Below, in pieces: positions 11,699 through 15,842 of a stretch of 36,228 nt of DNA. The stretch lies in assembly GCA_017545525.1 (NCBI GenBank), contig JAFWMT010000001.1:1-36228 (forward strand), given 5' to 3'. Position numbers and translations under genes: made by a program. The notes below the pieces were generated by a model. That model made no database searches, was not told where the DNA came from, and saw only the letters and a list, made by a program, of their open reading frames with translations. The stretch is from Candidatus Saccharimonadota bacterium (GTDB taxonomy: Bacteria; Patescibacteriota; Saccharimonadia; Saccharimonadales; Saccharimonadaceae). The first letter of the stretch is position 1; every line of letters starts with the position of its first letter.

Positions 11699-12055
11699 TG
11701 GTGGAGCTGCCGGATACTGCCTCCGGGTCCGAAATACCACCTGGTTGTAATTCTACGCGTATAGTTTTCTGTTTTGTCTTGGCAAACATTATCAGCTGCA
11801 GAAAACGAAACTGATAAAAGCCATGGCTGGTTTTCGAGCCAAATTTCGCCAACTAAATAACTCTATTCCCGTTGTATGATAATTCTCCGCCTACGGAAAC
11901 TCGGACAAAGAATCAGCCCAAAAAATTAATTAGGCATAAGCTGGCATGTACATGACATGCGCAGTTTTCGTGTTTTTAGCACTTATTTAATACTTACGGT
12001 ATTTAATCGACGCGCCTTACAACTGTTAATATCCCGTCTAAGCTTTGTCAGCCCC
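11699..12055 (-). ncRNA. ssrA: transfer-messenger RNA (tmRNA)
   Basis: Rescues stalled ribosomes and tags the unfinished protein. The 5' end GGGGCTGACAAAGCTTAGACGGGAT matches in order the conserved start GGGGCTG and GACGGGAT (broken here by lineage-specific bases); the 3' end CAGCTCCACCA pairs with GGGGCTG as the acceptor stem, CCA is encoded, and GGAC-stem-stem-CAGCTCC mirrors the E. coli T-arm. Length 357 nt. The likely tag frame starts at GCT 11980 and ends at TAA 11930-11932, giving AKNTKTAHVMYMPAYA. The T-loop is GGCAGTA (11715-11721) instead of TTCRANY, which is odd. The short reading frames over this region are artefacts of the RNA. Confidence 0.88.
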
Positions 12056-12066
12056 AACTGGTTATA

Positions 12067-12095
12067 ATTATACCACAAGAACTAAGTTTTAGCAA
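12067..12095 (-). promoter_or_regulatory. tmRNA promoter
   Basis: Minus-strand TTGCTA (12090-12095), 17-nt spacer, TGG-TATAAT (-10 at 12067-12072). Start near 12060, a few bases before mature tmRNA. The -35 lies in the tail of the upstream small RNA terminator. Confidence 0.75.
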
Positions 12096-12099
12096 TAGA

Positions 12100-12205
12100 A
12101 TAAGACCGGTAACTGCGAGGAAAACCGGTCTTATGTGTAGAGTGTGGAGTTATTTTGGCTAAATTTTTATTTTTGGCTTTTGAATAATTTTTTTATTCAA
12201 AAGCT
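12100..12205 (-). ncRNA. candidate small regulatory RNA
   Basis: A perfect promoter (12212-12240) places the start at 12205, the first base of a hairpin: AGCTTTTGAATAA-type stem, GCTTTTGAATAA (12176-12187) pairing over 12 bp with TTATTCAAAAGC (12193-12204). An unstructured A- and C-rich stretch follows, including AACTCCACACTCTACACA on the minus strand, then an 11-bp perfect hairpin ATAAGACCGGT (12100-12110) with ACCGGTCTTAT (12124-12134) and a weak T-rich end. This 5' hairpin, open middle, 3' hairpin layout is typical of bacterial small RNAs. There is no coding frame of note. The CTCC in the open part could pair with Shine-Dalgarno GGAG; that is inference. Confidence 0.6.
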
Positions 12206-12211
12206 ACCTCT

Positions 12212-12240
12212 ATTATAGCGCCCTAAATTGCTAATGTCAA
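12212..12240 (-). promoter_or_regulatory. perfect consensus promoter of the candidate small RNA
   Basis: Minus-strand TTGACA (12235-12240), 17-nt spacer, TATAAT (12212-12217): both hexamers match the sigma-70 consensus exactly. No coding start follows; the next features downstream are the two hairpins and tmRNA. Confidence 0.85.
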
Positions 12241-12328
12241 TATGTTTTTTGAACAATTTTTGTATATTTTTTGCAGAGTTTTCCACAAGTAATTTTATTA
12301 ACTTTCTTGCTAAAACTACGGACAAAAT

Positions 12329-12364
12329 GGTGGGGGGTTGAAAATAATGGAGAGGCGTGATACT
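12329..12364 (+). promoter_or_regulatory. comM upstream regulatory region with shared 15-nt motif, copy 2
   Basis: GGTGGGGGGTTGAAA (12329-12343) is identical to the motif at the surface-protein promoter. Its TTGAAA may be a -35, with GATACT (12359-12364, 15-nt spacer) or TACTAA (12361-12366, 17-nt spacer) as a weak -10. If so, transcription starts next to ATG 12374. Confidence 0.55.
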
Positions 12365-12373
12365 AAAAGGGCC

Positions 12374-13879
12374 ATGATAAGTAAAATACATTCTGTAGTG
12401 CCCTACGGCTTTGAAGGAAAGCTGGTTGAAGTCGAGGGTGATATGAATAGAGGGTTACCAGCTTTCAATATTGTGGGCATGGCAAATAAAACGATTAATG
12501 AAGCGAAAGATCGGGTAAGAAGTGCGCTGGTAAATTCGGAGTTTTCGTTTCCAGATAAAAAAGTAACGATAAATCTTGCGCCGGCGGAACTTTTAAAGGA
12601 CGGAGCTTATCTAGATTTACCGATAGCATTGTCGGTATTAGTGCTATCCGGGCAGCTAATTACAAGTGACGTAAGAGGTAAAGTATTTGTGGGGGAGTTG
12701 TCTTTAAACGGGGAGGTAAAACCAGTACGAGGGATAATTAATATAGTTGAGACGGCAAAACAGGTTGGGTATAGAGAAATCTACGTGCCAATTAAAAATT
12801 TGGCGCAGGCGTCGCTAATATCAGGTGTAGAGATATATGGGGTAGATACTTTGCAAAACTTATTTTTGGCGTTAAAAGAACAGATAGAATTAAAGCAGAC
12901 GGAAGAAAGCATAAGAGAGAGCTCAAAAGAATCAGTCGGGCCGATTTTAGACCATATCAGGGGTCAGAAACTGGCAAAGCGAGCAATGGAAATTGCAATT
13001 GCGGGCCATCATAATATCTTGATTTCTGGTCCGCCTGGGGCTGGAAAGACTTTGCTAGCGAAGGCTGCGGCGAATTTATTGCCCAAACTCACTCCTAGCG
13101 AAATGGTTGAAATTACGAAAATTTATTCGATCGCGGGTTTATCTACAGATGAAATTGTAATGGAAAGGCCATTTAGGAGCCCGCACCATACTGCGAGCCC
13201 AACCTCGATTATCGGGGGAGGAGCGACGGCGGGCCCTGGGGAAATTTCTCTAGCACACAAAGGAATTCTGTTTCTAGATGAAATACCAGAGTTCCAGCGA
13301 TCAGTACTAGAGGCTTTAAGGCAGCCGCTTGAGGATAAAGAGATTACGATATCGAGGGCAAATCGAAAATCGGTCTTCCCGGCGGATTTTATGCTAGTAG
13401 CAACAATGAATCCCTGCCCTTGTGGTTATCTTGGAGATCCGACGCATGAATGCAAATGTACCGAGACGCAAATCCAGAATTATCAGAAGAAATTATCGGG
13501 GCCGCTATTTGATCGAATTGATATGAATATTAACGTTGAAAAGGTGGCGAATGAGGATTTAAGAAAAACTTTGCCTCAAGAAACCGGCGAGCATAATGTT
13601 GTAAAAAATACTATAACAGAGGCGATTTCAAGGCAAAAGCGACGTTACGGACGAGATGGGTTTTATAATAGTTCCCTTTCTTCGTTTGAGGTTTCGCAAA
13701 TGTTAAAGCTAGAACCGGCGGCCGAAAAGTTACTAGCTAGTGCTTCGGAAAAATTAAATCTTTCGGCACGGGCGTATTTTAAAACGATTAAAGTCGCTCA
13801 AACAATTGCAGATTTAGAAGGAGCCGACTTAATTAAACAAAATCATTTGGCCGAAGCGTTGACTTTTCGAAAACGCTAA
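12374..13879 (+). CDS. comM: ComM/YifB-family AAA+ ATPase (Mg-chelatase-like)
   Basis: In other bacteria ComM is a hexameric helicase that promotes branch migration during natural transformation. Here 501 aa from ATG 12374. The N-terminal ribosomal-S5-like/ChlI domain shows PAFNIVGMANKTINEAKDRVRSAL and LAPAELLKDGAYLDLPIAL. Then come Walker A GPPGAGKT, the RSPHHTASPTSIIGGG motif, Walker B GILFLDEIPEF, NPCPCGYLGD with its cysteines, the arginine-finger region LFDRIDMNI, and the C-terminal SARAYFKTIKVAQTIADLEG. The family usually begins M(I/L)xKxxS, favouring MISKIHSVV over ATG 12347; AAAAGGG is very near the start. It suggests this organism takes up DNA. Confidence 0.9.
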   Translation: MISKIHSVVPYGFEGKLVEVEGDMNRGLPAFNIVGMANKTINEAKDRVRSALVNSEFSFPDKKVTINLAPAELLKDGAYLDLPIALSVLVLSGQLITSDVRGKVFVGELSLNGEVKPVRGIINIVETAKQVGYREIYVPIKNLAQASLISGVEIYGVDTLQNLFLALKEQIELKQTEESIRESSKESVGPILDHIRGQKLAKRAMEIAIAGHHNILISGPPGAGKTLLAKAAANLLPKLTPSEMVEITKIYSIAGLSTDEIVMERPFRSPHHTASPTSIIGGGATAGPGEISLAHKGILFLDEIPEFQRSVLEALRQPLEDKEITISRANRKSVFPADFMLVATMNPCPCGYLGDPTHECKCTETQIQNYQKKLSGPLFDRIDMNINVEKVANEDLRKTLPQETGEHNVVKNTITEAISRQKRRYGRDGFYNSSLSSFEVSQMLKLEPAAEKLLASASEKLNLSARAYFKTIKVAQTIADLEGADLIKQNHLAEALTFRKR

Positions 13880-15323: not shown

Positions 15324-15842
15324 ATAAAAAACAATTCACGCACGCGGTTGAACGGAGAGATTCGCTACCAGCAAGTGCGCGTAATCGGTTCTAGTGGTGA
15401 GCAACTAGGCATTATGTCTAGTCGTGAGGCTCAGCTTCTGGCGAATGAACAGGGAGTAGACTTAGTGGAAATAGCCGCTAACGCTGACCCGCCGGTCGTT
15501 AAAATTATTGACTGGGGTAAATTCCAGTATCAAAAGATGAAAGAAGAGGCGAAGAATCGGAAGAAAGCTCGTGAGAAACAATCCGAGCTGAAACAGATGA
15601 AAATCGGCCTCAAGATTTCAGATAACGACTTGAACATTAAAGTCCGAAAAATGCGTGAGTTTTTAGATGATGGCGATCGCGTAAAGATTATTGTTATCTT
15701 TAAAGGGCGCGAGATGGCTCATCGAGAGATTGGAAACGAACTAATGAGTAAAGTTGTTTCCCTGCTCGGTGATGATGTCATCACTGAAGGTAAAACGCAA
15801 ATGAACGGACGGAACTTGTCAGTACAGGTTCGACGAAAATAA
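15324..15842 (+). CDS. infC: translation initiation factor IF-3
   Basis: Binds the 30S subunit, keeps it free of 50S and checks start codons. The frame opens upstream of the first conventional start (TTG 15348): the in-frame codons ATT (15321) and ATA (15324) are followed by KNNSRTRLNGEIRYQQVRVIG, which matches the IF-3 N-terminus. With AAAGGA at 15313-15318, ATA 15324 has the better spacing; ATT 15321 is the E. coli-like alternative. From ATA the protein has 172 aa, the usual length. Both IF-3 domains are there (VDLVEIAANADPPVVKIIDWGKFQY; KIGLKISDNDLNIKVRKMREFLDDGDRVKI). A rare start codon would let IF-3 repress its own synthesis. First gene of a translation operon. Confidence 0.93.
   Translation: MKNNSRTRLNGEIRYQQVRVIGSSGEQLGIMSSREAQLLANEQGVDLVEIAANADPPVVKIIDWGKFQYQKMKEEAKNRKKAREKQSELKQMKIGLKISDNDLNIKVRKMREFLDDGDRVKIIVIFKGREMAHREIGNELMSKVVSLLGDDVITEGKTQMNGRNLSVQVRRK

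Follow-up and report, generated by a model that had tools for sequence, protein, structure and literature searches.

Gram-positive bacteria possess small RNAs of the RsaE/RoxS kind, the C-rich loops of which are aimed at Shine-Dalgarno-like sequences, and in sponge/anti-sRNA pairs and kissing-loop antisense systems two small RNAs expose complementary loops. The CiaR-dependent csRNAs of streptococci combine two stem-loops with an unpaired region that could pair with translation starts (PMC3091779), and CcnA of Caulobacter is presented as a replication-cycle noncoding RNA that is thought to act on ribosome-binding sites (PMC8959179). With regard to the Patescibacteria, a recent review describes the mechanisms of differentiation as completely unknown and cell-cycle regulation as virtually unknown, considers regulation of translation likely to be key, and mentions Tn-seq data for Southlakia epibionticum (PMC11665869).

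Here we analyze a 36,228-nt stretch of DNA (hereinafter the window) from a Candidatus Saccharimonadota genome (the own genome, G000) that harbors sRNA1, a small RNA gene similar to but distinct from all these systems. It shares C-rich loops with RsaE and RoxS but differs from them in sequence and structure and has no Rfam match. Unlike the sponge and kissing-loop pairs, sRNA1 and its loop partner, denoted RNA3, both bear DnaA boxes, and another RNA, denoted RNA2, matches a different part of the putative hub. The csRNAs are similar to sRNA1 in having two stem-loops around an unpaired region and a strong promoter under a dedicated regulator (PMC3091779), a putative one in the case of sRNA1; unlike the csRNAs, sRNA1 is present in one copy per genome, carries a DnaA box where the csRNAs depend on CiaR, has small RNAs as its apparent partners and has no established anti-AUG segment. 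The likeness to CcnA is that of a noncoding RNA with a putative tie to the replication cycle, but CcnA is located at the origin and presumably activated by CtrA (PMC8959179), whereas sRNA1 has a DnaA box and, in each of six genomes, is separated from dnaA by more than 100 kb; no sequence relation between the two is claimed. Trans-acting small RNAs, sponges and kissing loops are of a known kind, and what is new to our searches is the sRNA1 family itself, the DnaA boxes on two complementary small RNAs and the class-wide reach. No report of such a small RNA from Saccharibacteria, Patescibacteria or TM7 was found in the literature that we searched, most subscription papers being outside that search.

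The sRNA1 gene and its conservation

The features of the locus, in window coordinates, are as follows.

12235..12240, minus strand: -35 hexamer of sRNA1, TTGACA
12212..12217, minus strand: -10 hexamer of sRNA1, TATAAT, after a 17-nt spacer
12100..12205, minus strand: sRNA1, both ends predicted, the 3' one lying a few nt beyond the base of the terminator-like hairpin
12176..12204, minus strand: 5' hairpin of sRNA1, 12 bp with an A-rich 5-nt loop, covarying
12137..12163, minus strand: open stretch UUUAGCCAAAAUAACUCCACACUCUAC with the invariant core ACUCCACACUCUAC, complementary to the apical region of RNA2
12100..12134, minus strand: 3' terminator-like hairpin, 11 bp with a 13-nt loop, the stem covarying
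12111..12123, minus strand: terminator loop UUUCCUCGCAGUU, of which the CCUCGCAGUU part is complementary to the loop of the RNA3 hairpin
12279..12287, plus strand: DnaA-box-like site TTTTCCACA, 39 nt upstream of the -35 hexamer and in the same place in relatives
11699..12055, minus strand: tmRNA gene (RF00023, 98.9 bits), neighbor of sRNA1
12067..12095, minus strand: the tmRNA's own promoter, TTGCTA-17-TATAAT with an extended -10
12347..13879, plus strand: ComM/YifB-type Mg-chelatase AAA ATPase, divergent neighbor, with an in-frame TTG at 12338

A preceding interpretation of this DNA (the sequence-only reading) had described a perfect sigma-70 promoter, among the strongest in the window, followed by a 12-bp hairpin, an open A/C-rich stretch and an 11-bp hairpin, with no coding start, and all these elements are present. 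The promoter (TTGACA-N17-TATAAT, minus strand, 12240-12212) matches the sigma-70 consensus in 12 of 12 positions and is the sole perfect TTGACA-N16-18-TATAAT on either strand of the whole window. The arms of both hairpins are perfect (12176-12187 with 12193-12204, 12 bp; 12100-12110 with 12124-12134, 11 bp), and about 41 nt of open A/C-rich sequence separate the two structures. Given that the -10 hexamer ends at 12212 and that the start is expected about 7 nt further on, transcription is predicted to begin at 12205, the A immediately preceding the first stem base. From this start to the foot of the second hairpin, with both ends predicted, the RNA comprises about 106-107 nt. The subsequent U-tract is weak in the own genome (UUCUAUU) and stronger in many relatives (e.g., UUUUUCU). 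The predicted fold, at -27.9 kcal/mol, compares with -10.1 +/- 2.4 for 200 dinucleotide shuffles (z -7.4), none of which (0/200) is as good. There is no ATG or GTG within sRNA1, and a TTG inside hairpin 1 is replaced by CTG or CCG in relatives, in which indels break the frame. These features suggest that sRNA1 is transcribed and, judging from promoter strength alone, might be abundant.

Using BLAST, we detected sRNA1 in 51 of the 60 genomes of the home genus, including the own genome, a degree of conservation that excludes a chance origin. Seven of the nine negative genomes are less than 90% complete, the remaining two being G035 (99% complete) and G041 (91% complete). At least 118 stretches of DNA contain relatives; among the matches listed, nearly all come from Candidatus Saccharibacteria of ruminant and other guts, and one is labelled Nomurabacteria. 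An alignment of 52 sequences (the 51 genomes plus a second copy in G058) shows drift in the flanks but retention of the AACUCCACA-CUCUAC core and of the CCUCGCAG loop, and the promoter pattern TTGAC-N17-TAT..T is retained in 50 of the 51 loci. Both-side changes were observed in 7 of the 12 base pairs of hairpin 1 (62 sequences, 38 distinct) and in 8 of the 11 pairs of the terminator stem (45 sequences, 20 distinct), and for neither stem was the covariation score reached in any of 500 shuffles. The RNA thus passes the conservation test that the sequence-only reading had set for itself: the promoter, the stems and the open core are all kept among relatives. By the criteria of comparative sequence analysis, sRNA1 is a real noncoding RNA gene with a conserved strong promoter, and its architecture (hairpin, single strand, terminator) is shown by covariation.

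The tmRNA gene, which is missed by ARAGORN but detected by Rfam at 12055-11699 of the minus strand, begins about 45 nt downstream of sRNA1 in the own genome. The orientation of tmRNA relative to sRNA1 flips between genomes within this single genus: it is co-directional and downstream in 16 of the 51 loci, opposite in 26 and upstream in 9. Because the arrangement of the own genome is found in only 16 of 51 loci, sRNA1 does not depend on tmRNA and is independent of it. The comM gene adjoins sRNA1 in 50 of the 51 genus loci, at a median distance of less than 300 nt, and adjoins the sRNA1 relative in 18 of 26 outgroup loci. Further along the window, infC (IF-3), at 15348, is read from a TTG start in the list of open reading frames.

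Weak BLAST matches in other families represent the same gene as indicated by the promoter, the 5' hairpin, the A-rich blocks and the terminator. The 5' hairpin of these relatives carries GAAUAAAAAAAG and is followed by CAAAAACAAAAA and by a terminator loop U(U/C)CUCGCA. With a class-wide covariance model built from ten other-family sequences (E <= 0.01), we identified sRNA1 relatives in 229 of 392 genomes and 124 of 149 genera of the class, usually one per genome; this is a lower bound, given the strict filters and the fact that most home-genus copies, which BLAST does detect, escape the model. The class is probably Saccharimonadia, as judged from the names of the relatives and the NCBI taxonomy. 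Of the 12 loci inspected in further genera of the home family, the majority contain AACUCCAC, and the loops are mostly CCUCGCAG or ACUCGCAG. The CUCGCA loop extends across the order. Five loci that belong to other orders of the class retain both the 5' hairpin and the A-rich part, and neither the CUCGCA loop nor the DnaA box was seen in them. The terminator loops of these relatives are of the UUCC or ACCA type. The possibility that CUCGCAG is a general terminator loop was rejected: all 69 such hairpins in 921 kb of sequence from 118 loci belong to sRNA1, one per locus. sRNA1 is a free-standing, normally single-copy small RNA gene of Saccharimonadia, subject to the above assignment of the class.

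The DnaA box and the complementary RNAs

The site upstream of sRNA1 resembles TTWTNCACA, which we take to be the DnaA box consensus. The sequence TTTTCCACA occurs once in the window, and a single exact copy in 36 kb is unsurprising (36 of 100 shuffles). Comparison of loci reveals a fixed position: within the genus, TTTTNCACA falls into one 20-nt bin in 109 of 113 loci, and relatives outside the genus carry TTATNCACA at the corresponding upstream place, with 21 of the 26 outgroup loci having it in the bins from -100 to -61 relative to a GAAUAAA anchor and no copy elsewhere in the 62 kb. Control patterns yielded no comparable positional peak at the same loci. The consensus also clusters around dnaA (61 copies in 47 kb from 15 genomes, with about 4 expected from the window shuffle rate). 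We considered and rejected the possibility that the sRNA1 box is part of oriC: in the six one-contig genomes that list both positions, dnaA is located roughly 120-200 kb from sRNA1, the contigs being assumed to be circular. The positional conservation of the motif shows that the sRNA1 promoter carries a DnaA box, and control of sRNA1 by DnaA appears probable.

Secondary matches to sRNA1 in the genomes of the genus led to two additional, genus-wide RNA genes, which in the own genome are located as follows.

G000 contig 3, 92448-92631, minus strand: RNA2 (E 2.7e-13 in the own genome)
G000 contig 8, 10210-10296, minus strand: RNA3 (E 1.9e-18 in the own genome)

RNA3 was found as a secondary match of the sRNA1 promoter region in the own genome; the candidates at the first-listed places in G037, G028, G057, G007 and G036, which were picked up by the same promoter similarity, are not RNA3. 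It consists of a promoter (TTGACA-17-TAAAAT), a hairpin with the loop AUUAAACUGCGAGG, a conserved linker AUGUAUGACCU and a terminator, is present in 40 of the 60 genus genomes at E <= 3e-4 and shows both-side changes in 20 of 24 pairs, in an alignment fitted to the model. The loop CUGCGAGG is invariant in 41 of the 41 copies read, the model favoring copies that contain it, and is the exact complement of the invariant sRNA1 terminator loop CCUCGCAGUU. DnaA boxes are present within 100 nt upstream of RNA3 in 28 of 30 cases, compared to 2 of 523 random windows, and occur in both orientations in 19 of the 30. The longest Watson-Crick match between sRNA1 and RNA3 is at least 10 nt in 26 of 27 genomes vs 4 of 270 shuffles; these genomes are related, so that the trials are not independent, and this test was chosen after the full-length duplex had given a weak result (the real pair surpassed every shuffle in 3 of 27 genomes, median z -1.9) because the long palindromic terminators dominate. 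Given that both loops are invariant, covariation between the partners cannot be seen. Downstream of RNA3 in the own genome is an ABC transporter-like gene, the promoter of which is leaderless-like. A CCGAACA motif, possibly a transcription factor site, is conserved further upstream of RNA3 and also near RNA2. In another family, genome G075 (L428, 388-445) contains a hairpin with AAAACUGCGAGG directly before the AUG of what is presumably a LemA-like gene; this hairpin, with the loop GAAUAAAACUGCGAGG, resembles that of RNA3 and the complement of the sRNA1 loop.

The second candidate partner emerged from secondary matches of the sRNA1 core, which in nine genomes lie antisense within RNA2, a gene with its own promoter and terminator. 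RNA2 was identified in 47 examined genomes of the genus, including the own one, and features the promoter CAAT.TTGACA-17-TAAAAT, a conserved CGUUGAGAG internal loop, a GGGUGG...CCACCUAGAAA stem and a terminator, with both-side changes in 11 of 20 pairs. Its neighbors vary between genomes; in the own genome, it is located upstream of a large gene with a -10 only 6 nt before the ATG (leaderless-like). Complementarity between the open stretch of sRNA1 and the apical region of RNA2 extends across much of the genus: in 30 of 40 genomes, the duplex of the cognate pair scores better than any of 60 shuffles (median z -4.1), and 37 of the 47 RNA2 copies match the perfect complement at a score of at least 17 of 29. 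About 10 of the 47 copies, a deep clade among them, lack this complementarity, and there the sRNA1 core is still kept wherever sRNA1 is found. A non-pairing base occupies one RNA2 position in 31 of the 37 scored copies, no bias of RNA2 toward pair-keeping (wobble) transitions was detected (56 keep and 65 break the pair), and the complementary segment also forms a small hairpin of its own. No match that would indicate pairing between RNA2 and RNA3 was found, and outside the genus the RNA2 and RNA3 models yielded weak matches only, none of them convincing. G035, the nearly complete genome in which sRNA1 was not detected, has both RNA2 and RNA3; its RNA2 bears GUGUGAAGU, the complement of ACUUCACAC, an sRNA1 core variant observed nowhere else.

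A candidate RNA hub and its rivals

The reading that we favor, with a probability of roughly 0.55, is that sRNA1 is an antisense and kissing-loop hub that is expressed from a DnaA-boxed promoter, probably under the control of DnaA, pairs with RNA2 and RNA3 and sets translation in step with replication. The transcript would begin with a protective 5' hairpin, continue as an A-rich single strand and end in an intrinsic terminator. The open core would pair, in antisense fashion, with the apical region of RNA2, which would be a target or a sponge, and the terminator loop would kiss the loop of RNA3; the complementarities described above point to such pairing in the cell. Since RNA3 also has DnaA boxes, the levels of sRNA1 and RNA3 would change in concert, and each RNA would titrate the other. 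The weakest step is the effect on translation: through Shine-Dalgarno-like segments (CUCC/CCUC vs GGAG/GAGG), the circuit could adjust the translation of a small set of genes in step with replication. An extended version, in which DnaA drives the two kissing RNAs, the open stretch of the class-wide hub binds RNA2 within one genus, and the circuit replaces protein regulators in the switch between the host-attached and free states, is a speculation that we consider unlikely.

The sequence-only reading had proposed that the CTCC-containing stretch could mask Shine-Dalgarno sites, sparing leaderless genes. As a general mechanism, this is not established: only the home genus and some genera in its family have the CUCC motif, which is absent in other families, whereas the RNA is class-wide, and the conserved partners that emerged are small RNAs rather than mRNAs. 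A related, rather improbable alternative is an anti-Shine-Dalgarno RNA of the csRNA/RsaE type, in which CUCC and CCUC block many mRNAs, and RNA2 and RNA3 are target-mimic sponges. Two hairpins flank an unpaired region just as in csRNAs (PMC3091779), both conserved segments include 4 nt complementary to Shine-Dalgarno sequences, and the G075 hairpin places AAAACUGCGAGG directly before a start codon outside the genus. As to pairing with start codons of the csRNA type, the core contains no CAU. Against the anti-Shine-Dalgarno alternative, the exact complement of the 14-nt core is found nowhere else in the 31 genomes that carry the core, and no conserved mRNA target of sRNA1 was found. The one candidate with a long perfect complement to the loop, the infA-rpmJ intergenic site (own genome, C3:14691), was rejected, being kept in only 2 of 26 loci (30 were examined, 4 of which lack a recognised rpmJ). 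The absence of the core complement elsewhere and the lack of conservation of the infA-rpmJ site lead us to prefer a hub of small RNAs, with Shine-Dalgarno masking by sRNA1 as a possible rival.

The other substantial alternative, to which we assign a similarly low likelihood, is that sRNA1 is primarily a protein-binding RNA: the 5' hairpin together with GAAUAAAAAAAG and CAAAAACAAAAA would be bound by an RNA-binding protein or by RNA polymerase, and the pairing function would have been added later, within one order or genus. No other part of sRNA1 is as widely conserved as these A-rich blocks, which persist even in the orders with a different loop, and a protein may bind the A-rich 5' half, a part that predates the pairing segments. 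However, this explanation does not account for an invariant loop that is exactly complementary to the invariant loop of RNA3. A search for Hfq (PF17209) detected no gene in the own genome, which is 96% complete (controls match in 5 of 14), and a Hfq-dependent small RNA was accordingly rejected. So was 6S RNA, given that the fold consists of two separate hairpins rather than a long hairpin with a central bubble and that there is no match to RF00013. In agreement with the earlier description of the RNA as new, Rfam 15 at gathering thresholds gave no match on sRNA1, RNA2 or RNA3; the sole sub-threshold match over an sRNA1 relative (L431) is to anti-hemB, with 22.9 of the 49.5 bits required.

A conserved DNA element, i.e., a DnaA titration or regulatory site with the RNA as a by-product, would be in line with the fixed position of the DnaA box but is very improbable in view of the compensatory changes in both RNA stems and the invariant promoter spacing and loops. 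Least credible of all is a 5' precursor or leader of tmRNA, or a tiny mRNA, as might be imagined from the nearby tmRNA start and the UUG in hairpin 1: tmRNA has its own promoter and is opposite or upstream in 35 of the 51 genus loci, and the UUG becomes CUG or CCG in a frame broken by indels.

Under the favored reading of sRNA1 as a hub, a noncoding RNA that is spread across the class, carries a DnaA box and has small RNA partners in the home genus becomes a concrete, testable candidate regulator. Together, sRNA1, RNA2 and RNA3 would provide a large lineage, in which Rfam 15 gave nothing at these loci, with additional RNA families. If the reading is true, it would reveal a replication-coupled RNA circuit in a lineage of ultra-small symbionts that, in the genome examined, has no detectable Hfq.
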